Source: an uncultured Phycisphaerales bacterium
GTDB lineage: Bacteria; Planctomycetota; Phycisphaerae; Phycisphaerales; UBA1924
DNA length: 64,000 bases
Assembly (NCBI GenBank): GCA_903929885.1
Contig: CAIYWI010000023.1
Coordinates: 1 to 64,000, forward strand
Reading direction: 5' to 3'
Part shown: positions 25,830 to 50,117 of the stretch, one piece after another
How positions within the stretch are numbered: position 1 is the first letter of the stretch
Layout: each line of letters opens with the position of its first letter
The notes under the pieces: model-generated
What the model was told of the DNA's origin: nothing
The model's database searches: none
What the model saw: the letters and a program-made list of their open reading frames with translations, nothing else
Position numbers and translations under genes: made by a program

Positions 25830-25831
25830 TC

Positions 25832-30772: not shown

Positions 30773-31297
30773 ATGCCCATGTCCGCAGCCAATCCCGCCC
30801 GTCGAATCCTCCGCCGCCGCGTCGGCTTCACGCTCATCGAGGTGATGATCGTCATCCTCATCGTCCTCGCGCTGGGAGGACTGGTCGCGTACAACCTCAT
30901 GGGCACCAAGGAGGACGCCGAGAACAAGCTCTGCAAGATCGACATGAACACGCTCGAGCAGGCGCTCAAGCAGTTCCGCTTCGATCACGGTCGCTACCCC
31001 ACCGACGAGGAGGGCCTCGAAGTCCTGTGGAACAAGGAGAAGATGCAGGACGAGGAGGAGGCCAAGAAGTGGCGCAAGCTGCTCGAGCAGCCCATGCCCA
31101 ACGACCGATTCGGCAACCCCTGGGGGTACCGTCAGGCCAGCGAGAACGGCGAGGAGGACAAGTACGACCTCTGGTCGCCGGGCCGCGACAAGCAGGAAGG
31201 CACCGCCGACGACGTCAACTCCTGGAAGGCCGACGAGGCCTCGGGCGCTTCGGGGACTTCCGGTTCCGGCGCGGGATCGACCACGGGCGGCAACTGA
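30773..31297 (+). CDS. gspG: Type II secretion major pseudopilin GspG
   Basis: RRRVGFTLIEVMIVILIVLALGGLVAYNLMGTKEDAENKLCKIDMNTLEQALKQFRFDHGRYPTDEEGLEVLW; NPWGY. Confidence 0.95.
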   Translation: MPMSAANPARRILRRRVGFTLIEVMIVILIVLALGGLVAYNLMGTKEDAENKLCKIDMNTLEQALKQFRFDHGRYPTDEEGLEVLWNKEKMQDEEEAKKWRKLLEQPMPNDRFGNPWGYRQASENGEEDKYDLWSPGRDKQEGTADDVNSWKADEASGASGTSGSGAGSTTGGN

Positions 31298-31348: not shown

Positions 31349-32125
31349 ATGAAGTCAGGGCACGCCGCGATCCCGCACGCTCCACCCCGCGTCACCGCCG
31401 CGAGGGGATTCTCGTTGCTCGAGGTGGCCGTGGTGATCCTGCTGGTGCTCGCGATGGCCGCCATCACCCTTCCGGTGGCCGCAAGCTGGTTCTCCGACGC
31501 CGCCGATGAGCGGATGCTCGATTCGATCGTCTTGGCCATCCGCGATGAGCAGCGCGAGGCCATGCTCACTCGCACGCCTCGCGCACTCTGGATCGACGCC
31601 GACGCCGACGCCGACGCTGGGGCTGGGGCCGGGGCCGGGGCCGGGGTGGATCCTTCCCCGTCCGAGTCCGCATCGCCGCCCAGAGGCCGATCCGACGCCG
31701 CGGCTCGGTGGTCGCTCGGCGGCGAGACGCTCGGTTCGCGGGGACCCGCAGAGGGTGCATCCTCCGCGGGCGAGGTGGCGATTCGGCCTCGCCGCGCCGC
31801 CATCGACCTTCCCCGCGGGTGGTCGCTTGCGATCGATTCCGCCGCTCCCCCTTCCTCTGCGGAGACGCCGGTCGAGGCCGCCGCGCTCGATGTCGCCGCC
31901 GGATCGCGGGATGACGACCAGTCGCGGTTCGCGGTCTTCTGGCCCGGCGGCCAAGTCGATGTGCTCGGCATTCTGCAGGTGCGAAATGGCCGAGGCGCGA
32001 TGTGGTCCGTCGAGATCGATCCATGGACGGGCGTCCCCGCGTGGCGAGTTCGGACGTCGCAGGCGGACAGGGCGACGGCCGTCGGCCGACCATCCTCCCC
32101 TTCGCCCACGGAAGCATGGCCATGA
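31349..32125 (+). CDS. Pseudopilin (GspH-like)
   Basis: ARGFSLLEVAVVILLVLAMAAITLPVAASW prepilin motif. Confidence 0.8.
   Translation: MKSGHAAIPHAPPRVTAARGFSLLEVAVVILLVLAMAAITLPVAASWFSDAADERMLDSIVLAIRDEQREAMLTRTPRALWIDADADADAGAGAGAGAGVDPSPSESASPPRGRSDAAARWSLGGETLGSRGPAEGASSAGEVAIRPRRAAIDLPRGWSLAIDSAAPPSSAETPVEAAALDVAAGSRDDDQSRFAVFWPGGQVDVLGILQVRNGRGAMWSVEIDPWTGVPAWRVRTSQADRATAVGRPSSPSPTEAWP
31595..31646 (+). repeat. Compound hexanucleotide microsatellite inside pseudopilin gene
   Basis: (GACGCC)n followed by (GGGGCY)n, encoding DADADADAGAGAGAGAG. Confidence 0.85.
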
Positions 32126-32598
32126 TGGCACGATGCCGCTCGATCAGGCGCTCGGCCGCCCTCTCGCCGCGTCGCCCCGGAGCGATGCTGCTCGAGTGCC
32201 TGTTGGCGCTCGCGCTGCTCGTCGCTGCGGGCGTCACCGTGCTGGCCTGTCTCGATCGGGCGGCCGATTCGGTCGCGCGACGCACGCAGGAGGTGGTCGC
32301 GTCGCAGGTGGCCGCCGCCGCGATGGCGCTCATCGATTCGGGCGCGATGACGCCCGAGACGGTGCAGGGGCCCGCCTCTCGGTTGCGCGACGGCGTGTCG
32401 GTGGCCGGGAACTGGAACATCGCCGTCGACACCGAACCCTCCGAGTTCGGATCCCTCGTGCTCGTGACCATCCGCGTGTTCGACGCCGGCCGTTCGGCGG
32501 GTGGCGATCAGCAGGCGCTCGCGCAGGCGAGGAAGCTGGTCGACCTTGGCGCGGTGCGTGATCGCGTCGTCGCTCCGACGCAGGAGGCGGCGAGATGA
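32116..32598 (+). CDS. Prepilin-type protein (GspI-like)
   Basis: RRPGAMLLECLLALALLVAAGVTVLACLDRAADSVARR; position in operon. Confidence 0.7.
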   Translation: MAMMARCRSIRRSAALSPRRPGAMLLECLLALALLVAAGVTVLACLDRAADSVARRTQEVVASQVAAAAMALIDSGAMTPETVQGPASRLRDGVSVAGNWNIAVDTEPSEFGSLVLVTIRVFDAGRSAGGDQQALAQARKLVDLGAVRDRVVAPTQEAAR

Positions 32599-33254
32599 AG
32601 GTCCGTCGGTTCCATCGCGCCTTCACGCTCCTCGAGGTGCTGGTGGCTCTCATGCTCATCGCCGCCATCGCCGCGGGCGGCTTTGCGCTCTTCCGCGGCG
32701 CGATGTCCACCAAGGAGCGGCTGCACGCCGACTCGCGTCGCGCCCTCGAGGTCGCCACGCTCGAGAGCATGCTTCGTCAGGCGGTGCTCGCCAGCGAGGC
32801 GGGATCGGACGCCGGCGACTTCGCCGTCTCCTCTCGCTCGGTGTCGATTCCCTGTCGCGTGATGCGGGTCTCCTCCCGAGCCGAGCGGCCGGGGGCCTTC
32901 GCGAGACGGTTTTCCCTCTTCTTCGACGAGCAGCAGTCCGCCCTCCTCGCGGCATGGGATGATGAACCTGCCGTCCCGATTCTCCACGGTCTTGCCGACG
33001 TCTCGTTCCGCGCCTTCGACGGACGGACATGGCTCGAGGACTTCAGCGCGTCGCGCGACCGCGGCCTTCCGCTCGCCGTCGAACTCTCGCTTCGCTGGCG
33101 GCGGCCGGGCGATCCGATGTCGGCGGCCACCGCCGCATCCGATCCATCGGTCGATCCGGTCGACGCTCCCGAGGGCCCGGTCGACGCCATCATCGCCGTG
33201 GCTGTTCCCGATGCCGCGCCCGAGACCGGCGATTCCGGGGAGTCGAGGCCGTGA
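32595..33254 (+). CDS. Pseudopilin (GspJ-like)
   Basis: HRAFTLLEVLVALMLIAAIAAGGFALFRGAM; overlaps the upstream stop. Confidence 0.8.
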   Translation: MKVRRFHRAFTLLEVLVALMLIAAIAAGGFALFRGAMSTKERLHADSRRALEVATLESMLRQAVLASEAGSDAGDFAVSSRSVSIPCRVMRVSSRAERPGAFARRFSLFFDEQQSALLAAWDDEPAVPILHGLADVSFRAFDGRTWLEDFSASRDRGLPLAVELSLRWRRPGDPMSAATAASDPSVDPVDAPEGPVDAIIAVAVPDAAPETGDSGESRP

Positions 33255-34711
33255 TTCGTCGACGAGGATCCATCCTGCTGGCGGTCAGCCTGCTGGTCGT
33301 GATCGCTGCGCTCGTCGCCGCGGGCGTGCTCTGGAGCGTCGAAGCCGACGGCGCTGCCGAACGGATGCGTCGACGCGACGACGAACTTCGATCGCTCGCG
33401 CTCGACGGGGTTCGCATCGCCATCGTCTCGCTCGAGTCCCAGCGAGACGCGGTGCTTGCGGGCGCCGACTTTCAGCCGCCGGCTCAGGCCGTGGTCTACG
33501 AGGACGAGGACACTGGTCGCCGCGCCGTCGTTCGCTTCGAACCCTCGGCCGGCGAGGTCGACGCTCCCGAGCGTCGCGCCGTGGCGATGGCCGCCCTGTG
33601 CCCGCTCAATGACAGCGACGCGGCCGCGCTCGTGACCCTCGGATTCGACGAGGCTGTCGCGAGCGACATCATCGCCCGGCGGCCTTCCGGTGGCTATGCG
33701 CTGCCGGAAGACGCCCCGACCTCGACCGCACCGACGCAGGCCGCCTCGGGCTCCGACGCCGATGCCTCCGTCACTGTCGAGGCATCGCCCGTCGACCTGC
33801 TCACGACCACCTCGTGGGATTGCGACCGACCCGCCGCGTCGTCTCTTCCGCCTCGTCAGGGGTCGCGGCCTCGACGTCTCGTGCTCGGGGCGGGATTGCA
33901 GGACCAGGACCTCGCCTGGCTGGACGAGTCGCTGGATCCGCAGCTTGGCCAGATGGTCGCGCCGCTTGTCAGGGACTCGGCATGGAAGGGCCGCACGCTG
34001 GGCGACGCTGCCGCCGCGTTGACGGGCGCCGGGCTGACCCCTCGAGAGCTCGGACGAGCTCTCGACCTGCTCGCCGCCACCGATGAGGCCTTTCCCAAGG
34101 GTCGTATCGACGTCGGTCGCGCGCCCGTTCGCGTGCTCATGACGCTGCCGGGCGTTGACGAGGCCGTCGCGCAGCGGTTCGTCGCCGCTCGCGGTTCGCT
34201 CGACGACCAGGCCCGCGCCGGAATCGCGTGGCCGCTTGAACAGGACGTGCTCGACGCCGCCCGCTTCAACGCCATCGTCGATCGAATCACGGGTCGGTCG
34301 CTCCAATGGCGGCTGCGGATCAGGGCCGAGTTCGAATCCGCGGGCGGATCGCGGGCCGCGCCCGGGCCCGACGCCCAAGCCGTGCAGGATCGTCGTCCCT
34401 CCGTCACGCTCGATGTCATCCTCGATGCCGCAGGCGAGTCCGTTCGCATCGTCGCGATGCACGAGACCACATGGGCCGGGGCGGCCCGGGTCGCGTGGAG
34501 CGGCCTCCCGGGCGGGCGGGCGGCGAGCGAGCCGGATCGCGACCCGATCCAAACTTCACCCGAAATCGATGCCCAGGGGGGTCCGCCGCCCTCCCAACCC
34601 TTTATAATCAAGGAAGAGCCCGAGTCGGCCCAAGCGGATCGTCCCGCGGCTTCTTCTCCCGAGCGAAACCGCGCGACCGGGGGACGTACTGGGCGGTGGC
34701 GGCCACGGTGA
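33251..34711 (+). CDS. GspK-like minor pseudopilin
   Basis: IRRRGSILLAVSLLVVIAALVAAGVLWSVEADGAAERMRRR; helix-hairpin-helix-like LGFDEAVASDIIARRP and LPGVDEAVAQRFVAARG; GTGA overlap with upstream gene. Confidence 0.75.
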   Translation: MIRRRGSILLAVSLLVVIAALVAAGVLWSVEADGAAERMRRRDDELRSLALDGVRIAIVSLESQRDAVLAGADFQPPAQAVVYEDEDTGRRAVVRFEPSAGEVDAPERRAVAMAALCPLNDSDAAALVTLGFDEAVASDIIARRPSGGYALPEDAPTSTAPTQAASGSDADASVTVEASPVDLLTTTSWDCDRPAASSLPPRQGSRPRRLVLGAGLQDQDLAWLDESLDPQLGQMVAPLVRDSAWKGRTLGDAAAALTGAGLTPRELGRALDLLAATDEAFPKGRIDVGRAPVRVLMTLPGVDEAVAQRFVAARGSLDDQARAGIAWPLEQDVLDAARFNAIVDRITGRSLQWRLRIRAEFESAGGSRAAPGPDAQAVQDRRPSVTLDVILDAAGESVRIVAMHETTWAGAARVAWSGLPGGRAASEPDRDPIQTSPEIDAQGGPPPSQPFIIKEEPESAQADRPAASSPERNRATGGRTGRWRPR

Positions 34712-34814
34712 GTTCGGGAGCAGCGCCCACGCTCACCCGCAGCCGCGAAGGAGGTTGAGTACCGGCACGATCAGACCGCCATCGACCGGGGCGGTGAGGG
34801 CATCCAGGAGCACC

Positions 34815-36446
34815 ATGGCCGTAGGACGCGAGTACAGCGTGCTTGAGATCGACGGACCCCGGCTTGCCGCGGTGAGTGCGGCAGTGACGGGCGACCGCAT
34901 CGCCATCCGGCGATGGCTGATTTCGCACCGCCCCGAGTCGCTCGCCGGTGATCAGCCCGATGCGGTGGGTGCGTGGGTGGGGGGCGAGTTCGGTCGCGGG
35001 CAACTCAGCCGCGCGAGGACGATTCTGGCCGTGTCGCGAGGCGATGTGGTCCTCAAGCAACTGGCGTTGCCGGCCTCGTCGACGCTTCGGCCTCACGAAC
35101 TCGCAGGCGTGGTTCGCTTGCAGATGGTGCGTCAGTTGGCGATGCAGGTCGACGGGGCGGCCATCGACTACCTGCCGCCGGTGCCCCACCCCGGCGAACC
35201 TGCAACGCCGTCGATTCACGTGATGGCCGGAGCCATGCCCGCCGATCGCGTCGAGTGGTCTCGTCGCATGGCGCAGGGCGCCGGCCTGAAGCTGGGTCGC
35301 ATCGGCTTGCGGTGCTTCGGCGCCGCCGCGCTGCTCTCGGACGTCTCGCAGCGACGTCACGGCCCGGTGCTGGGCATCGCCATCGGGGCCGGCTCGGTCG
35401 AGTTCGTCGTCGTGGAGGATGGGCAGTTGGCTTTCGCCCGAGCGGTCGATGCGCCGCGACCCGCCGACGGCGAGCAGCAGCCCTTTGCCGAACGTCTGGC
35501 CGTCGAGGCCAAGCGGACGTGGATGAGCTTCCGGGCGGTGCGGGCCGGTGGCGAGCCCGAACTGGTGGCGGTGATCGGCGAACCCGAACTGGGCAAGCTT
35601 GTCGGCGAGCGGGCCGCCGCTTCGCTTGCGTGCGCGTGGGATCTGGTCGGCATGCCCGGCTTCGTCGAAGTCCCTTCGACCATGACGCAGGCCGAGCGAG
35701 CGCTGCTCGCGCCGCTCGTCGGACTGCTGTGTGAGACGCTTCTTGGCCGGCCCTCGCTCGACTTTGCCAACCCCCGCAAGGTGCCCGACCCCGGCGCGAG
35801 GCAGCGACAAGTCGCGCTGGTCGGGACGCTGTGCCTGATCGTCGTCGGCGGCGGGGGCACCATCGTCGCCGATCGCCTCCTGGGCGACCTGAGATCGCAG
35901 CAGGCCGACCTGCAGGTCAGGGAAGTGGCGCTCCGCAAGGAGTTCGAGGCCTTCCAGGTCGAGCACGCCCGCGTGTCCCACGCCGAGCGGTGGGTGTCCG
36001 CGAAGGCCGACTGGATCGGTCATCTGCATGCGATCGCCCGAACGCTGCCGGATCCGACCTCCGGCGTGCTCGACGGCATGTCCGGGCGGCTCAACTCCTC
36101 CACGACATTCACCATGGCCTCGGGGGGCTACCTGAACGGCCGATGGACGCAGCCTGCCCAAGTCTCGTTCGACGTCTCGGGCAAGGTCGACGCTCGTCAG
36201 ACCGCCTCCGACCTCCGCGAGCGACTCCTCGAGATCGACGGCTACGGCGTCGAAAGTCAGGGGCCTGACGCCCCGGATCGATTCGATTTTGCGGTCACCA
36301 CCGCGAGATTGACCCCTGCCGACGGCAAGACGCCCTCGCAACCCGACCCCAAGAGCAAGTCCTCGGGTTCGTCACGCACCTCCGCCTCGCAGAAGCCGGG
36401 TCCGAAGTCGGCTCCGACTCCGGTCTCGAAGGAGGGCGGTTCGTGA
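34815..36446 (+). CDS. GspL/PilM-like actin-fold inner-membrane platform protein
   Basis: MAVGREYSVLEIDGPRLAAVSAAV...VVLKQLALP...; C-terminal TM LVGTLCLIVVGGGGTIVADRLL; operon position. Confidence 0.7.
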   Translation: MAVGREYSVLEIDGPRLAAVSAAVTGDRIAIRRWLISHRPESLAGDQPDAVGAWVGGEFGRGQLSRARTILAVSRGDVVLKQLALPASSTLRPHELAGVVRLQMVRQLAMQVDGAAIDYLPPVPHPGEPATPSIHVMAGAMPADRVEWSRRMAQGAGLKLGRIGLRCFGAAALLSDVSQRRHGPVLGIAIGAGSVEFVVVEDGQLAFARAVDAPRPADGEQQPFAERLAVEAKRTWMSFRAVRAGGEPELVAVIGEPELGKLVGERAAASLACAWDLVGMPGFVEVPSTMTQAERALLAPLVGLLCETLLGRPSLDFANPRKVPDPGARQRQVALVGTLCLIVVGGGGTIVADRLLGDLRSQQADLQVREVALRKEFEAFQVEHARVSHAERWVSAKADWIGHLHAIARTLPDPTSGVLDGMSGRLNSSTTFTMASGGYLNGRWTQPAQVSFDVSGKVDARQTASDLRERLLEIDGYGVESQGPDAPDRFDFAVTTARLTPADGKTPSQPDPKSKSSGSSRTSASQKPGPKSAPTPVSKEGGS

Positions 36447-37471
36447 AGCCCTCGTTCTCGCGACTGTCGGTCCTCCGCCTTTCCCGTCAGGGGGCGATTC
36501 GTCTCGCCGTCGTCGCCCTCCTGACCATCGGCGCGTGGTACGCCTATCGAACCGTGTACGCCTCGAAGCGTGACGCGCTCTTGGCAACCATGGAATCGAC
36601 GCGAAACGGAATCGCCACCTTCGAACGCCAACTCAAGGGACAGTTCGAGATCGCCGACCGGGCCAAGGCCTTCACAAGCACCACCTTGGGCACGCGACTC
36701 GACGAGGTCAGCGCTCGCTTTCGAGATGGTCTCTCGCGGCTTGCCGAGACGGCGGGGCTCGTCGGCGTCATCGTCGATCACGGGGAGCCGCAAGAGGTCA
36801 AGAGCCCCTTGCTGGTGGCCAAGTCGGTTCCGAGCCCGATCAAGGCATCGCTGCGATCCTCGAGCGACTTCAGCGTGTTGCGGGGCACGGTGCGAGGATC
36901 CGGCACGGTCGAGCAGGCCCTTGCCGCCCTGGCGGCGATGGAGGCCCAGCCGTGGATCCATCGCGTCGAGGGATTCACCATCACGCCCGGGGGCAAGGGG
37001 CCCGACCGCTGCGAGATCCGCATCGAGGCCGCCACGGTGCTTGCGCCCGGTCTGCGTCAGGGCACGCCCGTCGAGTTGCGGCTTGCGCCGCCCGCCGAGC
37101 GGTCGCTCGCGCTGGCGCAGGAGATCGCCGGCCGGAAGTCCTTCGCCAAGGCGCTCGCCAAGCGAGACGCCGCCGCCCCCGTCGTGACCTTGGCCTCGCC
37201 CCCCGGCCCCGGCGTCGCGACGCCACCGGCGCAGGCCTTCGCGCCGTACGAAGAGTGGCGACTGACCGGCATCTTCTCGGGACGCGCCGGGCCCGAGGCC
37301 TTCTTGGTCAATGTGCGGAGCGGCGAACGTCGGACCGTGCAGCGAGGCGGCGTCGTGCTCGACGCCGTGCTCATCGACGCCGCTGGAGAACGGGCCCTCT
37401 TCGAGATCGCGGGCAAGCGTTTCGAGGTCTTCAACGGGCAGGTCCTCTCGGCGCGCAAACCGGTCGGCTAG
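36443..37471 (+). CDS. GspM/PilO-like protein with C-terminal GspC homology-region/PilP-like domain
   Basis: N-terminal single TM (AIRLAVVALLTIGAWYAYRTV) plus coiled coil; C-term EEWRLTGIFSGRAGPEAFLVNVRSGERRTVQRGGVVLDAVLIDAAGERALFEIAGKRFEV. Confidence 0.65.
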   Translation: MKPSFSRLSVLRLSRQGAIRLAVVALLTIGAWYAYRTVYASKRDALLATMESTRNGIATFERQLKGQFEIADRAKAFTSTTLGTRLDEVSARFRDGLSRLAETAGLVGVIVDHGEPQEVKSPLLVAKSVPSPIKASLRSSSDFSVLRGTVRGSGTVEQALAALAAMEAQPWIHRVEGFTITPGGKGPDRCEIRIEAATVLAPGLRQGTPVELRLAPPAERSLALAQEIAGRKSFAKALAKRDAAAPVVTLASPPGPGVATPPAQAFAPYEEWRLTGIFSGRAGPEAFLVNVRSGERRTVQRGGVVLDAVLIDAAGERALFEIAGKRFEVFNGQVLSARKPVG

Positions 37472-37604
37472 GCGGGGCACGAGTCGTCGTGGAGCGGTTG
37501 GAGGGTTGGACGTCGCGGGGCGTCGTGGAGTGGACGGTGTCGCGGGCTGGTGGTCGCGGCGTTCGGAACTCGCAGTTGGTTGGAGCGGCTTGGAGGTCTT
37601 GTTC

Positions 37605-40600
37605 ATGAATCGTCTTCGCACGCATCGCCCCGAACTGATCGCCTCCCTGACGGCATGCGCCGGGCTGGCGGTTGGCGCCTGGGCGGGGCAGCCCCCTGCC
37701 CCCGAGACCCAGCCGCCTGCGCAGCCGGCGACGAACGACCGGTCGCCGCCGGTCGCCCCTCCGGCCAACGCGCCTGCCGCCGAACCGGGTCTCGTGCGGT
37801 TCAACTTCAAGGACGCGCCCATCGATCAGGTGCTCGACGCCTTCACCCGCGAGAGCGGCGTGCCGATCATCTACGAGGCGGCCATTCCGCAGGGCACCAT
37901 CAGCTTCATCAGCCCCGGCGGCTACGCCATGGCCGACGCGATGTCGATCCTGAACCTCAACCTCGCGAGGTTCGGCGTGCACCTTCGTCGTCAGGACCAG
38001 TACCTCTACCTCGCGACCATCCAGGACGCGATGAAGAAGCCCCTTCCCGTCACCGACGCCAAGGGGGTCGATGCCATGACGCCCGACCAGATCGTCACGG
38101 TGAGTCTCCCGCTCGACAACGCCCGCGCCGAACTCGTGGCCGAACAGATCAAGCCCATGCTCGGGGCGTACGGCGGCGTGCTCGCGGTGCCGGCGCAGAA
38201 CATGGTGGTGGTGGTCGAATCGGCGGCCCAGGTGCGACGCATCCGCGACATCGTGCAAGCCATCGATGCCGTGCGACCGGTCGATTCCGCCTTCCGCATC
38301 TTCCCCCTCCGCAACGCGCAGGCCGATGCGGTGCTCGCCGCCCTCCGCGGGCTGGTGGGCGAGCGCGTCACCACGGTGATCGTCGACGCCGACGGCAAGA
38401 AGCGCACGCTCCAGGAGCAGCAGGTCGCCGGCCTCCAGTTGGCCTCCGACCCTCGCACCAACTCCATCATCGCCGTGGGCACGGCCTCGCGGATCAAGAC
38501 CGTCGAGGAGCTCATTTCGCTGCTCGACACGCCCGATTCCGGCGGCGTCGACCGCCAGATGCAGACCTTCGTCGTGGCGGGCACCACGCCCGAAGCCGCG
38601 GCCCAGCAACTCAAGGCGCTCTTCGCCGGCGAAGATCCCAAGCAACTTCCGACGATCATCCCGCTGACCGAGGTGGGCAAGGTCACGGTGGTCGCGGCGA
38701 TGCCCCAGCTCGCCAGAGCCACCGCGCTGCTCGCGCAGCTCGATCCCGGCGTCACCACGTCGCAGGGGGGCGGCCAGGCGACCGGCGGCTCCAAGCTGGA
38801 GCGTCGCGCCGCGTTCGTGCCCCTCAAGTACGCCACCGCGGCGAGCGTCGAGGCCATCGCCTCCAAGCTCCTGCCTCCGAAGATGAATCAGGTGGTCAAG
38901 GTCGTGGCCGGTCCCGACGGCAAGAGCGTCGTCATCGCCGGGCCCGATGGCGAGGTGGCGAATCTCGAACGCACCATCGCCGCCCTGGACGTGCAGAACG
39001 CCAGCGAGCAGGAGATCCGCATCGTCCAAGTGACCGACGCCGATCCCGCCGCGGTGCTGGCCCAGGCGCAGGAGCTCTACGCCAAGGCCGGCAAGGCCGA
39101 GCATGCGCCCGTCGCCGCGACGGTCGATGCCGTGGCACGCACCATCACGCTCATCGCCCCCAGGCTCACGCTCAGGGACTTCGAGACCGTGCTCGCCGGC
39201 GTGCGTGCGGCGAGCGCAGGCGCGGTCGAGACGCGAACCTTCACCTTGGCGGCCAGCCGCCCGACCGTGCTGGCGGCACGGCTGACGCGACTGCTCGGCG
39301 TCATGATGCCCGCCTCGGGCACGGCCGAGATTCCCGACGTGCCGCCGCAGGTCGACGCCGTGGACGAGCTTGGCCTCCTGGTGGTTCGGGCCCGGGCGCA
39401 GCAGCTGGGCGCCATCGCGCAGCTGGTCGAGAAGCTCGACGGTCGCGACGGCACGCCCCGCGAGCTTCGCGTGGTGCCCGTGACCGAGGGCAAGGCCGCC
39501 GCGCTCAAGGATCGCGCCATGCCCCTGTACCTGCAGCAGGTGGAGAAGGCCGGTCCCGTCGAGGCGCTGGCCGTCACCGTCGACGAGCAGACCAACTCGC
39601 TGCTGGTGGTGGCCGCTCGCGCCGAGATCGATCGCTTCTCGCGGATCCTCGAGGAGCTGCAGAAGCAGTCGGGCCCGGCCCGCGAGGTGCGGCTCTTCGA
39701 GATCAAGATGGCCAAGGCCCAGGACATCGTGACCTTCCTGGCCGACATGGCGTCGTCCAGCCGCACGCTCACCGCCAAGGGCGGCGTCGAGCCGGCCTTC
39801 GAGGTGATCGAGGCCACCAACAGCGTGATGGTCGCGGCACGCCCCGACCAGATGCCCATCATCGACTCGCTCATCCGCAGTCTCGATGGTCGTCAGGCCG
39901 CCGATCGGCCGCCGGTGCGCATCCTCAAGCTCCGATCGACCGACGCGGCCAACCTCGCGTCGATCCTCCAGAAGGAGTTCGACAAGCGATCGCCCGACCA
40001 GCGAAGCCGCGACCCGGTGAGCATCGAGGCCGATCCGGGCACCAATACGCTGATCATCTCCGCCAGCGAAGCGGCCCTGACCGAGATCGAGTCGGTGGTC
40101 GCCAAGCTCAACGAGACGGAGGCGGCGGGGGCGGACGGTCGCGAGATTCGCATCTTCCCGCTCAAGGTGGCCAGGGCCGAGGATCTCGCCCAGACCATCG
40201 ATCAGATGTTCCCCGACCCGCCGGTGCCGCTCGACCCCAGGACGCGTCAGCCGCGGCTTGATCTCAAGCAACCGCGGGAGGTGGTGGTGCGGGCGGACCG
40301 CGCGACCAACTCGCTGATCGTCGATGCGCCGGTGCAGCGACTGGCCGGCTTCGAGCAGATCGTTCGCAGTCTCGACCAGGCCAAGGTCGCCGCCGACGTG
40401 GTCTTCCGCACGTACCGCATCGAGCGGGCCGAGATCAACAACCTGGCCCGCACCATCCGCGACCTCGCCTCCTCCGGCACGCTCGCGAGCATCGGCAAAG
40501 TCTCGACCGCGCCCATCAGCGTCTCGGTCGACGCGCCCACGCGCATGCTGGTGGTGAGCGGTCACGCCGACGCCTTCCCCGCCATCGAGGAACTCATCAA

Positions 40601-43600
40601 GAAGGTCGACTCGCTTCCCGAGACGTCGCCCACGGATCTCAAGCTGTACCCGCTCGCCAAGGCCCGAGCCGAACGACTCGCTCCGATCGTCCAGCGACTC
40701 CTGGCCTCGCGCGTGCGAGAGGCCAGGCTCGCCGCCGGCAAGGCCCGGCCCGACGACGACCGGCTCGTCGAGGTCACGGCCGACGCCGCGTCGAATACGC
40801 TGATCGTCTCCGCGCCCGCCGAGGGCATCGCCGTGGCCGACGGCATCATCAAGGCCCTCGACGCCGACAGCGTGGCCACCGCCACCGAGGTGCGAGTCTT
40901 CCGCCTGGGCAAGGGCGCCGCCGAGACCGCCGCCCAGACGCTCCGTCAGACCCTCAAGGCCCAGTCCTCGCCCGGCGAGCCCGAGGCCGTCGTGACGCCC
41001 GAAGCCACCAGCAACACCATCACCGTCGTGGGGACGTCGACGCAACTCGAGCGGGCCGCCAAGCTCATCGAGTCGCTCGACGTCGCCGTCGACATCGAGG
41101 GGCTGGGCGTCCGCACCGTGTCCCTCAAGCATGCCCGGGCCGAGGCCCTCGCGCCCGTGATGGAGCAGGTCCTCAAGACTGAATCCGGTCTCGATCGACT
41201 GCCCCAATGGGCCCGCCAGCAGGCCATCGCCCGCGGCGCGGTCGAGCAACCCCGCATCCGCGTCGCAGCCGAACCTCGGATCAACGCCCTCATCGTGAGC
41301 GGGCCGCGTTCCGTGCTCGACATGGCCGAGGAGGTCGCCGCCCAGCTCGACGTCGAGGGCGACGAGGCCCGCTCCGATGCGCAGCGACGCCTCGTGCGAG
41401 TCATCACGCTGCAGAACTCCGATGCCGCCCAGTTGGCCACCAACATCTCGGCCGTCTTCGCCGAGGAACGCTCCGCCGAGCCCGCGCCGCTCGTCCGGGT
41501 CGACCCGCAGGCCAACGCGATCATCGTCCGCGGCACCCAACGCCAGATGGAGCTCATCGAGCAGCTCACCACCAGTCTCGACAAGGCCGCTGCCGCCACG
41601 AGCCGCCAGATGCGGACCATCGCCGTCGACAAGTCCCGCGTCGACGCCGAGATGCTCGCCCGCATGCTCGAGCGACTCATGCGCCAGCAGGGCGGTGGCA
41701 AGGTCGAAGTCATCTCCGCAGAGGAACTCCTCAAGCGCCACGGCGGCCAGTCCGCCGAGCAGCCGGTCAGCCCGCCGGCCCCGCAGGAAGGCGACAAGCC
41801 CGCCGAGCCCAAGAAGACCGGCGCTCTGCACGTCATCCCGCTTCATCACCTGGCCTGCGGCCCCGTCCGCGGCTCGAGCGTCCTCTTCTCTCCGGCCGAA
41901 CCGCGACAGGACGCGCCCGCGTGGATGGCCTTCATCGCCGCCGCCGCGGTGGGCGTCGCGCCCGCGTCCGCCTCGCAGCCCCAGCCCGACGCCCAGCCCC
42001 CCGCGGCGGCCGCCGCCGGCGAGGACGACGACCAGCCGGTGACCATCGCCGTCGACAAGGCGACCAACTCCATCGTGGTCGTGGGCTCGCCTCGCCAGAC
42101 CGACCGCGTGGCCAGGCTCGCCGACCAACTCTCGACGCAACTGCCGGCGCAGCCCGGCCAGGTGCGTGTGGTCACGATGCCCCCCGCGTCGGACGTCGTG
42201 GCGATGTCGCAGGTCATCAACCAGACCATTGCGCAGCTCTCGTCGACGGCGCAGGGCCGCCGCAGCGCGTTCAGCGGTCCCGTCACCGTGACGCCCGACC
42301 CCGCGGGTTCGGCGCTCATCGTCTTCGCCAACGACATCGACTTCGAGACCGTCGGCGGCGTCATCGCGGGCGTATCCCGCCTCGACAACCCGGTTCGCAC
42401 GACCATCAAGGTCTATCCGCTGGTCAACATCAACGCCTTTCGCGCGTTGCAGGCGGTGCGGGACCTCTTCAACCCGACGGGTTCGGGGGCTCAAGCCCGG
42501 CGCGTGCGGAGCATGGACGTCTCGATCATGCCGCGGGGCGCAGGGGCCGCCGAGCAGCCGTCGCCCGCCTCGGTTCGCATCGATCCAACGACGGTTCGGG
42601 TGACGGCCGATCCGACGGGCACCTCGCTGCTGGTGGCCGCCCCCGTCGAGGCCTTTCCGCTCATCGACGCGCTGCTCGAGACCCTCGATCAGAATCCCGC
42701 GAGGGATCGGCTGGCCATTCGCCGATATCCGCTGACGCACGCCAAGGCCGATCAGCTCGCCGGCACCTTCCAGCAGCTCTTCGATCGTCAGCGACAGGGG
42801 GCCGGCGCGGCCGATGCCCCGCAGACGGCCTTCATCGCCGACGCCCGCACGAACGCCCTGCTGGTCACCGGCAGCAGCACGCAGCATCAGGAGGTCGAGC
42901 GGCTGCTCGCCGCGGCCGACGCCACGGCCGAGTCGCCCGATTCGTCGATGGAGATCCTGACGCTCAAGCAGGCCGCCGCCACGACGGTGCAACGCATCGT
43001 CGAGCAGGTGGTGGTGGGCAACGACCCCGGGCGGCGAGAGAAGGTTCGCATCTTCGCGCAGGACGGCTCCAACATGCTCGTCGTGCGGGCGCCCAGGGAG
43101 CAACTCGAGCAGATCAAGGAGCTCGTCGCCCGCATCGACACCGCCGAGACCGGCGGCCTGCCGGTGCACTCGATCAAGCTCGAACGCGCCGACGCCGATG
43201 CCGTGGCCGCCGCGTTGCAGCGGTTCTTCGCCGAGCGAGCCCAGGTCTCATCGCGTCCCGGCCGTCCCGCCCCGAATCGCGTGGCGGTGGTGGGGGACAA
43301 GCGCACCGGCACCATCATCGTCACCGCCGCCGACGCCGACTTCGAGCAGGTCAAGACGCTGGTGGCCACGTTCGACAGCCCCAGCCCCACGGCGGACATG
43401 GTCTTCCGCATCGTGCCCCTCCGCAACGCCAGCGTGACGGAGATCGGCGACACGGTCCGCAACATGGTGGAGGAGATCCGCTGGACGGCCATGACCAGCG
43501 GCAACGCCGAGGGGGCGGATCGTCAGGTCTTCATCCAGCTCAACGACGCCTCGAACAGCGTCGTGCTCATGGGCAAGGCGGAGCAGATCGCCACCATCGA

Positions 43601-46600
43601 GAAACTGCTGTCGGCCCTGGACGTGGCCCCGGAGCAGCGGGCCGCGATGGCGGTCCGCAGCGTGCCGGTGACCAACGCCGACATGGTCGCGGTCAAGTCG
43701 GTGCTCGAGAAGGCCTTCTCGACGCCCAACTGGCGCCCGTGGCGAGGTCCCGATCCCGCCGCCGTGACCGTGCAGGTCGATCGTCTCCGCAAGAGTCTCA
43801 TCCTGGTCGGCAAGGTGGAGCAACTCGACAAGGCGCAGGCCTACATCAAGGAACTCGACACGTCGCCGGCGGGCAAGGAGCGTCGCGTCGAGGCCATCGC
43901 GCTCAACCACGCCCGTGCCGAGCGAGCGGCCAACAACCTGCGTCAGTTCTTCACCGATCGCGCCCGCGGGCAGGGCGTCGACTCCTCGGGCGTGAGCATC
44001 ATCGGCTCGCCCGACGGCAACGCCATCGTCGTCTCCGCCGAGGAGACGGATCTGGCGATGGTGAAGGAGCTCGTCGCCCAGCTCGACCAGCCCGACGCGG
44101 GCAAGGATCGCCGCATCGAGCTCTTCGTGCTCCGCAACGGCGTGGCGAGGGAGACGGCCGACGTGCTGCGCTCCATGTTCACCAAGGCCGATTCGCCGAG
44201 CGAACGCGTGGTGATCACCCCCCAGGTCGCGACCAACTCGCTGGTCATCTCGGCGCCCGAGACGATTTTCGAGGAGGTGGCGGGGCTGCTCAAGCAGCTC
44301 GACGCCCCGCCGACCGCTGATGCCGCCAACATCGAGACCATCGCGCTCTCGACGGCCCGGGCGCAGGACGTGGCCACGGCCCTCAAGTCGGCGTTGCCGG
44401 CCAACGTGAAGGTGGTGGTCACGCCGGTGACGCGGAGCAACTCGCTCCTGCTCACGGGCAGCAAGGAGGCCATCGCGCTGGTGATCGAGCAGGTGAAGAA
44501 GATCGACACCGAGCCGGTGCGATCGGGGCAGGTCTTCCGCCGCTACAAGCTCGCCAACGCCGACGCCATGAGCGTCGCCGACACGCTCGAGCAGGTGATC
44601 CGGGCCCGTCCCCGCAACCCCACCGACGCCGAGACCTCGATCGATTACGCCCGCGCCGAGAACACGCTCACGGTCTACGCCCCGTCGGATGAGGTGGAGG
44701 AGATCGAGCGGATCATCCAGGAACTCGACAAGCCCAGCGAGGTCGAGCGGACCACCGAGTTCGTCAAGCTCGACTTCGCCAACGCCGAGCAGACCGCCAG
44801 CGCGCTCAAGCTCTTCTACGGCCGCACCGCCTCGGAGGTCACCGACCCCGCCGCCCGCAACGTCACCATCCTGGCCGATCCGCTCTCCAACTCGCTGGTG
44901 ATCCGCGCGGATGCCTCGCAGTGGGAGGGCATCCGGGCCCTGCTCGCCAAGCTCGACACCAAGGAGTACGACACGCGCCGCCAGTTGGCCGTCGTCCCGC
45001 TGGCCTACGCCGACGCCGCGAGCATCGCCCGAGCGCTCAACGAGGGCTTCCGCGCCCCGCTCGAGGAGCAGCGGCGGCTCGCGCAGGCCCGCGCGCAGAC
45101 GCAGCGTCCGCAAGGTCAGGGGCGACAGTCGGCGCAGAACGAGCCTTCGTCGCTGGTCGATCCCGAGGGGTTGCCCACCGTCTCCGCCGAGACGCAGACC
45201 AACTCGCTGATCATCTTCGCCGGCGCGGCCGAGCTCGAACGCATCCAGCAGGTCATCAGGCAGCTCGACGTCTCGGGCTTCGCCGACATGCCCGCCGCCC
45301 GGATCATCCCCCTCAAGAGCGGCAAGCCCTCGCAGGTCGCCTCGATGATCCGCGAGCTCTACCTCAACAAGAACGATCGCTCCTCGCAGGCCATCGGGCC
45401 CCGAAGCGTGCTGGTGATCGGCGACGACACCAGCGGCTCGCTCATCGTCCGCGCCGACGACGAGAAGTACGCGCAGATCCTCGCGCTGGCCCGCACCCTC
45501 GAGGAGCAGGGCCAGTTGGGACGCGTGCAGCCGCACGTCGTCAAGCTCCGCACCGTCGCCGCCGGCCGCCTGCGTCAGACCCTCCTGAGCACCTTCACGC
45601 CCACGGCCCGCGCCCAGGGCGAGACGCTGGCCGTCGAGATCGACCGCTCCAGCAACTCGCTGGTGATCGCGTGCAGCGATCGCCTGCTCCAGGAGATCCG
45701 CAAGGTCATCGACGAACTTGATGCGCCCCCGGCCGCGCAGGGGCAGGACGCGGGCAACGGGCTGCCTCCCTCGCTGAGCCAGAGCGTCTTCATCATCGAC
45801 GTGGCCAACAACGATCCTGCGCAGGTGAGGCAGATGCTCGAGAGCATGGGCGTGACCGGGCCGCAGGATCCGACGGCGCCCGGGGTGGTGGCCGAACCGG
45901 TGACGATCGTCCCGATGACCAGCCGCCGCGCCATCGCCGTGCTCGCCTCCGCGGGCGACGGCCGCACCATCGAGGCGCTGGTCAAGGCGATGGACGCGGC
46001 CCCCGCCGAGGCCGACCAGATCGTCGCGATGGTGCCCCTCAAGCTGGCCTCCGCCAAGACGCTCGCGGCCACGCTCAGCGCGATGCTCCAGCCCTCCGAG
46101 GGGGTCGTGGGCGCCACCCCCGGCAAGGCCCTCGCCGAGCACGTGCGGCGGCTGGGCATCTCTCGCACGGGCGTCGACCAGAGCGATCGCAAGATCGATC
46201 TGACGCGAGCCATCCGGGTGTTGGCCGACGAGGAGTCCAACTCGCTGGTGATCGCCAGCACGCAGGCCAACGTCGACGCGCTTCGCGATCTCGTCAGGCT
46301 CATGGACACGCTTCCCGCGGGCGACGCCGTGATGGTCCGCATCTTCCCCCTGGCCAACGCCTCGGCCGTTCGAGTCAAGCAGGTGGTCGAGCAGCTGTTC
46401 GCGCAGGGCGAGTCGCTGCGTCGCCTCCCCGGCACCGATCGTCAGGGGTTGCCACCGACCGCCGTCGGCCAGGCGCTGGCGGGCGAGATCGCCGCGACGG
46501 TCGACGAACGCACCAACACGCTCATCGTCGCCGGCCGCGAGGAGGGCGTCGCGCTCGTTGAGGTGCTCATCAAGGATCTCGACAGCGACCGCGCCGCCAA

Positions 46601-49529
46601 CTGGATCGAGCCGCTGATCATCCCTCTCAAGTTCGCCGACGCCTCGACGCTGGCTCGCACGCTTGACGAGGTGCTCGTGAAGGGCGCGACGCTCACGCCC
46701 GAGGCGATGGGCCTGCAGAAGCAGTTCGGCCGCCTTCGCGTGAGCATCGACGGCAAGCCCGTCGACCCCGAGAACCCGCAGGCCGTGGTGCAGGCCGATC
46801 TCTTCGCGCCCGTGACGGGCCTGGTGATCACCTCCGACGCCGTGATGAACTCGCTCATCGTCGTGGGCACGCCGTCCAACAACAAGGTCGTGCAGGCGAT
46901 GGTGGCGCAGCTCGACGTCGAGGCCGCCTCGGCCGCCAACGCCGTTCGCGTCTTCCCGCTCGTGCACGCCTCGAGCGACCGCGTCGCGGGCATGATCCGC
47001 GATCTCTTCCGTCAGCGAGAGTCCCTGCCCGACATGCGCCCGCAGGACAAGGTCATCATCACCTCCGACGTGCGGACCAACTCGCTGATCGTCGCCACCA
47101 GCCCCAAGAGCGTCGCCATCATCGAGGGCCTCATCAAGACCCTCGACGGCGAGAAGACCAACTACTCCGTGGGCCTGCACGTCGTTCCCGTGCCCGGTTC
47201 CGACGTGCGGCAGCTCGCCCCTCGCATCGACCGGCTCATGAAGGAACGCATCGCCGCCGCCTCGCGGGGCGTCGAGATCAAGAGCCCCCTCGATGCCTTC
47301 AGCATCGAGCCCGAGCCCGTGAGCAACCTGCTCATCGTGGCCTGCAGCCAGGAGAACCTGGTGGTCGTCAAGGAACTCGTGGCAGCCCTCACCGAGGACG
47401 CCGCCAAGGTCGCTGCCGGGCAGCGGACCGATCTCGTGCAGCTCACGCGTGCCCGCGCCGCCGAGGCCGCGCAGTCGCTGGCGGCCCTGTACGTCGACCG
47501 CGAGAACCAGAAGCGCGGCCGCGAGGCCGTGACCGTCACGCCCAACGAGCGGCTCAACGCCCTCGTGATCGCCGGCAACGAGCAGGACATCATCGAGTTG
47601 CGGGCCCTCGCCACGAGGATCGACTCGGCCGAGGTCGCCGCCCGCCAGCAGATCAAGGCCATCGAACTCCGCAGCGCGAACGCTCGCGAGGTCGTGCGGC
47701 TCGTCGAGGCCGTCATCGCCGGCCGGCCGGTCGGCGGCGGCCGAGGCGTCGCCGCACGCCAGGCCACGCGGCTGCAGTTCCTCCGCGAGGCCCTCACGGG
47801 CCAGGTCGTGGCCGAGTCGGGCCGCAAGCCCACCGAGGCCGAGATCGACGGGGCCATCAAGGACCTCGTGATGCTCACGGCCGACCCCCGCACCAACTCG
47901 ATCTGGATCACGGCCCCCGAGTCGATGGTGGCCCTGCTCTCCGAGATGATCGAGGACATCGAGAAGTCCAACGCCGGCGCCCGCAAGATCGAGAAGTTCA
48001 CCCTCGTCAATGCCGACGCGAGGCAGATGGCCCAACTCCTCAAGGAGACCTTCCGACTCGAGCAGCAGGGCGGCGCGCTGGTGCTGCTCCCCGCCGCCGA
48101 GGAGCCCGAGGGCGACGGTGCGTCGCCTGCCGACGCCGCCGCGCCCGCGGGGACACTGCCCACCGTCACCGCCGTGCCCGACGAGCGCCAACAACTCTCC
48201 ATCGCCGTCGACGCCCGCACCAACACGCTCATCGTCAGCGGCACCGACGAATACCTCTCGCTGGTGCGCAAGGTCATCACCGACCTCGACTCCATCGAGG
48301 CCAACGAGCGAGAGCGTCGCGTCTATTCGCTTCGCAACGCCAAGGCCCGCGAGATCGAGACCACGCTTCGGTCCTACTTCAAGGGCGAGAACGACTCCGA
48401 GCGCGCCACGCTGGGCCCGCAGCTCTCGGGCAGTCTCATGCGACGCCTTGAGCAGGAGGTCACCGTCGTCGGCGACGAGAAGTCCAACAAGCTCGTCATC
48501 TCCACCTCGCCCCGATACATGGAGACGGTGCTCAGCATCGTCAACGAGCTCGACACGCCCCCGCCCCAGGTCATGATCCAGGTCCTTCTCGCCGAGGTCA
48601 CGCTCGATTCGACGGAGCAGTGGGGCATGGACATCAGCGTCGGCCCCTTCGGCGGCGAGGGATACAAGATCGGTTCGCTCGCCGGCGGCAGCGGCGTCGC
48701 CACCGCCCTCGGCGTGCCCAACCTCTCCGTCTCCTCCGCCGACTTCGGCATCCTCGTGCGTTCGCTCGAGGCCCAAGGCAAGCTGGAGGTGCTCTCCAAC
48801 CCGCAGGTCACCGTCAACAACAACCAAAAGGCCGAGATCAACGTCGGCGACGACATCGGCGTGGCGGGCAACACCGAGCGGAGCAGTCTCGGCACGCTCA
48901 TCTCCTCCGTCAGTCGAATCCCCGTGGGCATCATCATGAACGTGACGCCCGCCATCAGCGAGGACGGCTTCGTTCGCATGGAGATCACCCCCGAGATCTC
49001 CCAGCTCACCAACCGAACCACGCAGATCAACCGCGACCAGACCTCCCCGGTCATCGCCAAGCGCCGCGTCGACACCGTCGTCACCGTGCGCGACGGTCAG
49101 AGCGTCGTGATCGGCGGGCTCATCCAGACCACGCAGGAGGAACGCCGCTCCAAGGTGCCGATCTTGGGCGACATCCCCGTGCTCGGCCTGCCCTTCCGCA
49201 CCAAGCTCGAAGAGGCCAAGAAGACCGAACTGCTCGTCATCGTCACGCCTCGTGTCATTCCCGGCGTGCCCGGGCAGGGACATGGCATGGCCGAGGACGT
49301 CTCCGAGCAGACCGTCAATCGCATGGAGGATTCCAGCCGCGTGCTGGACTACCTCGAGACGATCAAGGCCGACATCAAGGCCGCTCGCGACCGCGCACGT
49401 CGTCGCCAGCAGGAGGAGGCGGACGGCAACCTCGTCCCCGACGCGGACACCGACCGGTTGCCCGAGCCCGCCACGGTCATTCCGGCGCCCGAACGCCCGC
49501 AGCCGACGTACGTGCAGCCCAAGCAGTGA
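37605..49529 (+). CDS. gspD: Giant secretin (type II secretion GspD-like) with ~41 tandem N1-type domains, ~3974 aa
   Basis: Signal peptide; N0-like VRFNFKDAPIDQVLDAFTRESGVPIIYE; repeated 'xFPLxxAxAxxLxxxLxxxF...D.RTNSLIVxGxxxxxxxIxxLIxxLD' modules; C-terminal secretin QVMIQVLLAEVTLDSTEQWGMD...VLSNPQVTVNNNQKAEINVGDDI...VIGGLIQTTQEERRSKVPILGDIPVLGLPFR...LLVIVTPRVIP. Start ATG 37605 chosen for the signal peptide. Confidence 0.93.
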   Translation: MNRLRTHRPELIASLTACAGLAVGAWAGQPPAPETQPPAQPATNDRSPPVAPPANAPAAEPGLVRFNFKDAPIDQVLDAFTRESGVPIIYEAAIPQGTISFISPGGYAMADAMSILNLNLARFGVHLRRQDQYLYLATIQDAMKKPLPVTDAKGVDAMTPDQIVTVSLPLDNARAELVAEQIKPMLGAYGGVLAVPAQNMVVVVESAAQVRRIRDIVQAIDAVRPVDSAFRIFPLRNAQADAVLAALRGLVGERVTTVIVDADGKKRTLQEQQVAGLQLASDPRTNSIIAVGTASRIKTVEELISLLDTPDSGGVDRQMQTFVVAGTTPEAAAQQLKALFAGEDPKQLPTIIPLTEVGKVTVVAAMPQLARATALLAQLDPGVTTSQGGGQATGGSKLERRAAFVPLKYATAASVEAIASKLLPPKMNQVVKVVAGPDGKSVVIAGPDGEVANLERTIAALDVQNASEQEIRIVQVTDADPAAVLAQAQELYAKAGKAEHAPVAATVDAVARTITLIAPRLTLRDFETVLAGVRAASAGAVETRTFTLAASRPTVLAARLTRLLGVMMPASGTAEIPDVPPQVDAVDELGLLVVRARAQQLGAIAQLVEKLDGRDGTPRELRVVPVTEGKAAALKDRAMPLYLQQVEKAGPVEALAVTVDEQTNSLLVVAARAEIDRFSRILEELQKQSGPAREVRLFEIKMAKAQDIVTFLADMASSSRTLTAKGGVEPAFEVIEATNSVMVAARPDQMPIIDSLIRSLDGRQAADRPPVRILKLRSTDAANLASILQKEFDKRSPDQRSRDPVSIEADPGTNTLIISASEAALTEIESVVAKLNETEAAGADGREIRIFPLKVARAEDLAQTIDQMFPDPPVPLDPRTRQPRLDLKQPREVVVRADRATNSLIVDAPVQRLAGFEQIVRSLDQAKVAADVVFRTYRIERAEINNLARTIRDLASSGTLASIGKVSTAPISVSVDAPTRMLVVSGHADAFPAIEELIKKVDSLPETSPTDLKLYPLAKARAERLAPIVQRLLASRVREARLAAGKARPDDDRLVEVTADAASNTLIVSAPAEGIAVADGIIKALDADSVATATEVRVFRLGKGAAETAAQTLRQTLKAQSSPGEPEAVVTPEATSNTITVVGTSTQLERAAKLIESLDVAVDIEGLGVRTVSLKHARAEALAPVMEQVLKTESGLDRLPQWARQQAIARGAVEQPRIRVAAEPRINALIVSGPRSVLDMAEEVAAQLDVEGDEARSDAQRRLVRVITLQNSDAAQLATNISAVFAEERSAEPAPLVRVDPQANAIIVRGTQRQMELIEQLTTSLDKAAAATSRQMRTIAVDKSRVDAEMLARMLERLMRQQGGGKVEVISAEELLKRHGGQSAEQPVSPPAPQEGDKPAEPKKTGALHVIPLHHLACGPVRGSSVLFSPAEPRQDAPAWMAFIAAAAVGVAPASASQPQPDAQPPAAAAAGEDDDQPVTIAVDKATNSIVVVGSPRQTDRVARLADQLSTQLPAQPGQVRVVTMPPASDVVAMSQVINQTIAQLSSTAQGRRSAFSGPVTVTPDPAGSALIVFANDIDFETVGGVIAGVSRLDNPVRTTIKVYPLVNINAFRALQAVRDLFNPTGSGAQARRVRSMDVSIMPRGAGAAEQPSPASVRIDPTTVRVTADPTGTSLLVAAPVEAFPLIDALLETLDQNPARDRLAIRRYPLTHAKADQLAGTFQQLFDRQRQGAGAADAPQTAFIADARTNALLVTGSSTQHQEVERLLAAADATAESPDSSMEILTLKQAAATTVQRIVEQVVVGNDPGRREKVRIFAQDGSNMLVVRAPREQLEQIKELVARIDTAETGGLPVHSIKLERADADAVAAALQRFFAERAQVSSRPGRPAPNRVAVVGDKRTGTIIVTAADADFEQVKTLVATFDSPSPTADMVFRIVPLRNASVTEIGDTVRNMVEEIRWTAMTSGNAEGADRQVFIQLNDASNSVVLMGKAEQIATIEKLLSALDVAPEQRAAMAVRSVPVTNADMVAVKSVLEKAFSTPNWRPWRGPDPAAVTVQVDRLRKSLILVGKVEQLDKAQAYIKELDTSPAGKERRVEAIALNHARAERAANNLRQFFTDRARGQGVDSSGVSIIGSPDGNAIVVSAEETDLAMVKELVAQLDQPDAGKDRRIELFVLRNGVARETADVLRSMFTKADSPSERVVITPQVATNSLVISAPETIFEEVAGLLKQLDAPPTADAANIETIALSTARAQDVATALKSALPANVKVVVTPVTRSNSLLLTGSKEAIALVIEQVKKIDTEPVRSGQVFRRYKLANADAMSVADTLEQVIRARPRNPTDAETSIDYARAENTLTVYAPSDEVEEIERIIQELDKPSEVERTTEFVKLDFANAEQTASALKLFYGRTASEVTDPAARNVTILADPLSNSLVIRADASQWEGIRALLAKLDTKEYDTRRQLAVVPLAYADAASIARALNEGFRAPLEEQRRLAQARAQTQRPQGQGRQSAQNEPSSLVDPEGLPTVSAETQTNSLIIFAGAAELERIQQVIRQLDVSGFADMPAARIIPLKSGKPSQVASMIRELYLNKNDRSSQAIGPRSVLVIGDDTSGSLIVRADDEKYAQILALARTLEEQGQLGRVQPHVVKLRTVAAGRLRQTLLSTFTPTARAQGETLAVEIDRSSNSLVIACSDRLLQEIRKVIDELDAPPAAQGQDAGNGLPPSLSQSVFIIDVANNDPAQVRQMLESMGVTGPQDPTAPGVVAEPVTIVPMTSRRAIAVLASAGDGRTIEALVKAMDAAPAEADQIVAMVPLKLASAKTLAATLSAMLQPSEGVVGATPGKALAEHVRRLGISRTGVDQSDRKIDLTRAIRVLADEESNSLVIASTQANVDALRDLVRLMDTLPAGDAVMVRIFPLANASAVRVKQVVEQLFAQGESLRRLPGTDRQGLPPTAVGQALAGEIAATVDERTNTLIVAGREEGVALVEVLIKDLDSDRAANWIEPLIIPLKFADASTLARTLDEVLVKGATLTPEAMGLQKQFGRLRVSIDGKPVDPENPQAVVQADLFAPVTGLVITSDAVMNSLIVVGTPSNNKVVQAMVAQLDVEAASAANAVRVFPLVHASSDRVAGMIRDLFRQRESLPDMRPQDKVIITSDVRTNSLIVATSPKSVAIIEGLIKTLDGEKTNYSVGLHVVPVPGSDVRQLAPRIDRLMKERIAAASRGVEIKSPLDAFSIEPEPVSNLLIVACSQENLVVVKELVAALTEDAAKVAAGQRTDLVQLTRARAAEAAQSLAALYVDRENQKRGREAVTVTPNERLNALVIAGNEQDIIELRALATRIDSAEVAARQQIKAIELRSANAREVVRLVEAVIAGRPVGGGRGVAARQATRLQFLREALTGQVVAESGRKPTEAEIDGAIKDLVMLTADPRTNSIWITAPESMVALLSEMIEDIEKSNAGARKIEKFTLVNADARQMAQLLKETFRLEQQGGALVLLPAAEEPEGDGASPADAAAPAGTLPTVTAVPDERQQLSIAVDARTNTLIVSGTDEYLSLVRKVITDLDSIEANERERRVYSLRNAKAREIETTLRSYFKGENDSERATLGPQLSGSLMRRLEQEVTVVGDEKSNKLVISTSPRYMETVLSIVNELDTPPPQVMIQVLLAEVTLDSTEQWGMDISVGPFGGEGYKIGSLAGGSGVATALGVPNLSVSSADFGILVRSLEAQGKLEVLSNPQVTVNNNQKAEINVGDDIGVAGNTERSSLGTLISSVSRIPVGIIMNVTPAISEDGFVRMEITPEISQLTNRTTQINRDQTSPVIAKRRVDTVVTVRDGQSVVIGGLIQTTQEERRSKVPILGDIPVLGLPFRTKLEEAKKTELLVIVTPRVIPGVPGQGHGMAEDVSEQTVNRMEDSSRVLDYLETIKADIKAARDRARRRQQEEADGNLVPDADTDRLPEPATVIPAPERPQPTYVQPKQ
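38091..48560 (+). repeat. Tandem diverged secretin N1-type modules (~41, ~85 aa each)
   Basis: 41 modules counted by eye from the paired motifs PL-xxA.. and (T/S)N(S/T/A)LIV...; modules 3-6 are the most degenerate. Confidence 0.85.
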
Positions 49530-49553: not shown

Positions 49554-50117
49554 ATGCGTCGACGCGGTCGTTGTCGCATACCCTCTCCCGCCGTGCTGAA
49601 GGCGACCTGGTCATCATGCTGCCGGTGCATCGGGTGGCTTTTCATGGCCGCCGCATTGGCCGTTCATCTTGGCGGATGTGTCGCCGACGACGGCAAACGG
49701 CCGGCCGTCGGCAAGCCCCCGGCCAATGCCCGTCCCGGCACCATGTTTCTCGCCGCCCAGGCCTTCCGCGACACCAACGCCAACGGCTGTCTCGATTCCG
49801 GCCTCCTGACGGTCTACATCTTCCCGCCCAACTACCCCCGCTCCGTGCAGATCCCCGGCACCTTCGACCTCAAGCTCGTCGGTCGCGGCGGCGTCCTCAT
49901 CCGCGAATGGACGCTCGAGGCCCCCGGCCCCGATGTCGCCCCCGTCAATGCCGGTGTCGGTCCCGGCTACGTCATCCGCCTGAGTCTGCTCGACAAGGAG
50001 GGAAGCGATCAACTTCCCTGGCAGTCGGTTGACATCCTCTCCAGATTCACCGACCGCCAAGGGCAGTCTGTCGAGGCTTCGCCTACCTCCGTGCAAGTAG
50101 GTAGAACAAACCCCTGA
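49554..50117 (+). CDS. Hypothetical lipoprotein
   Basis: MAAALAVHLGGC lipobox; likely start ATG 49644 rather than 49554. Confidence 0.6.
   Translation: MRRRGRCRIPSPAVLKATWSSCCRCIGWLFMAAALAVHLGGCVADDGKRPAVGKPPANARPGTMFLAAQAFRDTNANGCLDSGLLTVYIFPPNYPRSVQIPGTFDLKLVGRGGVLIREWTLEAPGPDVAPVNAGVGPGYVIRLSLLDKEGSDQLPWQSVDILSRFTDRQGQSVEASPTSVQVGRTNP

Follow-up and report, generated by a model that had tools for sequence, protein, structure and literature searches.

A predicted GspD-type secretin with 41 N1-type modules, encoded in a type II secretion operon of an uncultured Phycisphaerales bacterium

Background

The secretin of the type II secretion system (T2SS), GspD, is usually a protein of ~550-750 amino acids (aa) with three N1-type domains, which assembles into outer-membrane rings of 12-15 subunits. 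Known secretin pores carry three to six copies of the ring-forming domain. The mean length of the secretin family has been given as 555 +/- 151 aa (PMC4827864). PulD has four N-rings and is 20 nm long (PMC6882859). The PilQ of Thermus thermophilus is a 13-mer with six stacked rings (N0-N5), which is 35 nm long and reaches across most of a wide periplasm (PMC5745081), and this six-ring, periplasm-spanning length has been described as setting it apart from all other secretins (PMC8578077).

In this study, we analyzed a stretch of 64,000 nucleotides (hereafter the window) from an uncultured Phycisphaerales bacterium, in which a first-pass annotation had pointed to a giant secretin gene. Profile searches, structure prediction, genome surveys and phylogeny reconstruction were employed to examine its reading frame, domain architecture, distribution and evolution.

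Results

The giant gspD gene and its operon

The giant gspD gene (37605-49529, + strand) is a single intact open reading frame of ~11.9 kb. The frame is uninterrupted from 37311, the earliest possible start, to the stop codon at 49527-49529, and translation from the ATG at 37605 gives 3974 aa, with a mature protein of ~421 kDa. The gene has a single Shine-Dalgarno (SD) sequence, GGAGG (37592-37596, +), located 8 nt 5' of this ATG, and codon-position G+C is even across all 11.9 kb. The open frame, the SD and the uniform coding G+C thus agree with the coordinates and the uninterrupted frame that had been proposed for the gene. Searches within it found neither an internal terminator on the sense strand nor tandem DNA repeats. 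Two antisense ORFs lie over the gene on the - strand (37431-43169 and 43248-49283; 1912 and 2011 aa) and were rejected as genes, because the high third-position G+C (GC3) accounts for both.

A + strand T2SS operon with the order F-G-H-I-J-K-L-M-D ends, as far as large genes are concerned, with the giant gspD. The first two genes are gspF (29479-30672; PF00482) and gspG, encoding the major pseudopilin (30722-31297; PF08334). They are followed by four genes for putative pseudopilins: gspH-like (31349-32125; prepilin motif GFSLLE) and gspI-like (32002-32598), both assigned by sequence and synteny, gspJ-like (32595-33254; PF07963 and a sub-threshold PF11612 match) and gspK-like (33251-34711; likely GTG start at 33251, sub-threshold T2SS_GspK match and synteny). 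The gspL-like gene (34755-36446) has a weak PilM_2 match and co-occurs with the giant gspD, and the gspM-like gene (36443-37471) encodes an extra C-terminal domain of ~65 aa, which follows a Pro-rich linker and is kept in relatives. A profile of this domain matched nothing in the PDB, and Pfam gave a sub-threshold T2SSB match to the C-terminus in one relative and none above the cutoff. GspC was not recognised, and the GspM-like C-terminal domain may be akin to the HR domain of GspC/GspB (HR/T2SSB-like) and take the place of GspC in meeting N0. The operon also lacks gspE; 13 matches to T2SSE-family ATPases were found elsewhere in the genome. Directly after gspD lies a small conserved ORF (49554-50117, +) with a lipobox (LGGC), homologs of which were found in most relatives; a lipobox could be recognised in 11 of 16. 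Its lipoprotein-like product is a candidate pilotin or outer-membrane accessory protein. Genes for FliW, CsrA and two flagellins are located at 24649-29333, directly upstream of the operon.

Domain architecture

The predicted signal peptide (37605-37685, +; aa 1-27, ending in GAWA before G) is followed by a Pro-rich linker, and the N-termini of relatives are alike. An N0 domain was assigned to 37794-38084 (~aa 64-160) by two lines of evidence, namely the alignment of residues 65-311 with solved XcpQ/GspD N0-N1-N2 fragments of the 4e9j/3ezj type (E 2.4e-9) and an N0 profile made from ordinary-size PVC GspDs, which matches all 32 complete giants. The Pfam N0 model PF21305, suggested for this purpose by the first-pass annotation, missed the domain at E<=10, whereas the alignment and the PVC profile found it.

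The other two models suggested there gave clear results: PF03958 (Secretin_N) matched 38 stretches of the 3974-aa protein with 1097.5 bits, and PF00263 (Secretin) matched once (aa 3721-3885, E 8.9e-48). No other family was convincing in the Pfam scan beyond the secretin domains. Iterative profile building from the protein's own sequence identified 41 modules, which were reported as 42 stretches because module 16 (41607-42140) is interrupted by a low-complexity loop; in three relatives an insert of different sequence occupies the same position. Fifty shuffled copies of the protein together gave a single match, compared with the 42 stretches of the true sequence. The array of N1-type (Secretin_N) modules thus delimited by Pfam, profile and structure prediction covers 38106-48563 (aa 168-3653), and across the giants the modules have a median length of 69 aa, a pitch of 78 and linkers with a median of 8 aa.

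Structure alignment and GspD profiles point to module 1 (38106-38270) as the canonical N1 and to module 41 (48315-48563), which adjoins the pore, as the canonical N3. The N1 profile of ordinary GspDs matched the first module best in 26 of the 32 complete giants, with modules 33 and 1 scoring nearly equal in the window protein; the N3 profile matched the last module best in 10 of 32, the window protein included; and the N2 profile found its best matches in several internal modules. The secretin pore occupies 48567-49304 (Pfam core 48765-49259), and together with the last module it aligns with the N3 and pore of PulD/GspD (6hcg, E 1.3e-59). Since N1 lies at the first module and N3 at the last, the extra modules, ~38-39 by these sequence comparisons, are assigned to the space between them and are N1/N2-like. 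The profile count, the N0 evidence and the single PF00263 match accordingly bear out the architecture first proposed, of about 41 modules, one N0 and one pore.

In AlphaFold2 (AF2), six mid-array modules (30 sequences) were modelled as six beta-alpha-beta-beta-alpha units, with a mean pLDDT of 75 (mostly 75-88 outside loops) and a pTM of 0.42. The best PDB matches of this model in Foldseek are GspD secretins (E 1.2e-8), and a C-terminal model matched GspD at E 4.9e-29. With HMM, AF2 and Foldseek in agreement that the repeats are genuine N-domains, as had been claimed, we regard their predicted fold as settled. The models, with pTM of 0.39-0.42, do not define module-to-module geometry, and straight ring stacking is therefore not established by AF2.

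The best solved-structure matches to the pore are T2SS GspDs, and by homology and gene context the giant is assigned to the GspD-type T2SS secretins. Of the two types named at first, GspD or PilQ, the former is thus upheld by the GspD-type pore, the N0/N1/N3 order and the T2SS operon, whereas PilQ identity was rejected on both pore similarity (E 5e-36 to PilQ vs 1e-59 to GspD) and operon; AMIN domains, a PilQ trait, had no Pfam match in the protein. The other secretins of this genome served as a control: of five, four have 1-4 Secretin_N domains and one has none. A second long secretin (G000:C62; L134:5013-10076) has 1687 aa without Secretin_N and with weak TPR-like matches only, and secretin frames of ~1300-1630 aa, possibly of the same kind, recur across the order.

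Distribution of giant secretins

When 40 relatives were searched, open frames of 3100-5000 aa often held the best pore match. Complete relatives have 3.1-5.1 kaa, and the 20 giant genes that were taken in full encode 30-52 modules each. In four further giants, whose assemblies consist of one or two contigs, 39-50 modules were counted. Intact frames in dozens of genomes, single-contig assemblies included, establish the giant gene as real and conserved. In some MAGs the giant genes are split by frameshifts or stops (L065/L126 and L082/L127), probably as a result of sequencing errors, and the '17xx aa' secretins of L065 and L082, considered as intermediates, proved to be frameshifted giants instead.

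Within the window's family, the giant pore was found in 67 of 120 sampled genomes (~56%) and the GspL of the operon in 69; both were present in 65, so the system is gained or lost as one unit. The 201 genomes sampled across the phylum yielded giants solely within the family and order to which the window belongs. A scan of named genomes recorded them in Phycisphaerales, in other Planctomycetota MAGs and in Verrucomicrobiota-labelled MAGs, where phylum labels are those of the depositors and some titles (Leptolyngbya, Akkermansia) are doubtful. The longer giant frames of the Verrucomicrobiota-labelled MAGs measure ~3900-4290 aa and are preceded by the same F-G-...-K-L-M gene order, and the operon is likewise conserved in the window's relatives. 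Around one of these MAGs the giant is rare, since the query itself was the only giant match in 196 genomes.

Evolution of the array

Modules within the window protein share ~22% mutual identity. When compared with a genus-mate (L020), each module matches one counterpart at 42-89% identity, reciprocally and in order. Differences in array length consist of blocks of 4-5 modules, for example five after module 6 in L020, and in L020 and L026 the members of the five-module block have their closest counterparts five positions later in the array. This block would therefore represent a tandem duplication in the relatives or a loss in the window's line. In all 41 modules pN is lower than pS in comparison with L020 (overall dN 0.27, dS 0.93, dN/dS ~0.29); the modules are under purifying selection, and modules 10, 26, 34 and 41 evolve at a notably slow rate.

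A careful pore tree grouped all 32 giants, those of Planctomycetota as well as those of Verrucomicrobiota, to one side of a single branch (support 100/99), and a quicker tree with more rows agrees (support 76). This topology is consistent with giant secretins that arose once and then spread or were transferred. Moderate expansions occur in other planctomycetes, with 7 modules in the 1347-aa protein of L158 and 4 in the 1341-aa protein of L149. The natural series of 3, 4, 7 and then 30-52 modules offers a way to study how a homomeric tube is lengthened.

Discussion

A proposed periplasmic conduit

On balance we favour the reading that the locus encodes the GspD of a seemingly complete T2SS, whose N-ring stack is ~10-fold longer than usual and forms a periplasmic conduit of ~100-125 nm. 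By analogy with other secretins, 13-15 subunits would assemble into a complex of ~5.5-6.3 MDa (13-15 copies of 421 kDa), each module level closing into a ring and the ~41 rings stacking into a tube; our own estimate of ~2.5-3 nm per ring gives a length of ~100-125 nm plus the pore, which makes the ~100 nm of the first-pass annotation a reasonable figure. The pore would be placed in the outer membrane, and the N0 ring would contact the inner-membrane platform of GspL/GspM, perhaps via the GspM C-terminal domain and not GspC. Export of folded enzymes through the tube would be driven by a long pseudopilus. Module blocks, duplicated or lost, would set the length of the array, presumably to fit the local distance between the membranes. 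For the strictest version, in which ~41 homomeric rings form one continuous stack of ~100-125 nm and ~6 MDa, acting as a block-tuned ruler of membrane distance and being the longest secretin known, we consider the chances to be about even.

Another possible arrangement, to which we attach clearly less weight, has rings only near N0 and beside the pore, with the middle modules as beads on a string that serve as a flexible tether or sieve. The AF2 models, in which individual modules are confident and their relative orientation is not fixed, fit such a tether, as does the PilQ of T. thermophilus, where ring-to-ring distances vary and a hinge lies near N4/N5 (PMC5745081). However, the linkers are short, as expected if the N-rings are packed; module order is kept over large evolutionary distances, beyond the needs of a passive spacer; and the N1-N3 rings of PulD pack tightly (PMC6882859).

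It is improbable that the modules are mainly binding sites for substrate, peptidoglycan or periplasmic enzymes, making the protein a loading or storage scaffold with its length as a by-product. The divergence of modules within the protein and their conservation across species would suit this idea, as would the four slow-evolving modules, but no known binding domain is inserted among the secretin domains, and diversification would be expected as well in an ancient stack whose rings each have different neighbours. Least probable of all, in spite of the frameshifted copies in L065 and L082, is that the ORF does not represent one protein: the modules are too diverged for misassembly, tandem DNA repeats are lacking and numerous independent genomes carry the gene, which speaks against an assembly artefact, and the SD, terminator and coding-signature checks gave no signal for cutting or expression as several shorter N-domain proteins.

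Secretins are thought to have few N-rings, and the six of T. thermophilus PilQ have been called exceptional. If the modules do stack as in the favoured conduit, a conserved family with 30-52 such domains would exceed the length of every described conduit across the envelope several times over. We are not aware of any requirement for a channel as long as 100 nm. The first-pass annotation had connected the length with the expanded or invaginated periplasm of planctomycetes, a link that is weak. An enlarged periplasm and crateriform structures are known from Planctopirus and Gemmata of the Planctomycetia (PMC5394234), which in the 201-genome sample lie outside the order that holds the giants, and elsewhere in the phylum giants are rare. 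Crateriform structures are absent from cultured Phycisphaeraceae, which divide by binary fission (PMC8882080). The distribution of the giants therefore does not follow the planctomycete envelope known from textbooks. A literature search found no published periplasm width for the window's family. The giants raise two testable questions about these mostly uncultured bacteria, namely the width of their periplasm and whether the number of secretin rings varies with it.

Comparison with known systems

Secretins go unmentioned in a survey of huge proteins (PMC11573180), and no report of such giants was found in a search of the open-access literature. What is new here is a GspD outside the usual description of three N1-type domains and ~550-750 aa, with 41 modules in 3974 aa, and conserved in relatives with 30-52 modules. 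The closest described systems are the T2SS GspDs (PulD, XcpQ, EpsD, ExeD), with which the giant shares N0, N1...N3 and the pore (6hcg, E 1e-59) as well as an operon of T2SS pseudopilin and platform genes (GspF, GspL/M), and from which it differs in having 41 instead of 3 N1-type modules and an operon without gspC and gspE. The PilQ of T. thermophilus resembles it in the lengthened stack of beta-alpha-beta-beta-alpha N-rings, but is a 757-aa secretin of type IV pili and DNA uptake with six rings, ~sevenfold fewer. Ordinary-size PVC GspDs such as that of L112 (702 aa, 3 modules) belong to the same operon type and are 37% identical in the pore, but they are unexpanded, and in the pore tree the well-supported branch separates them from the giants.
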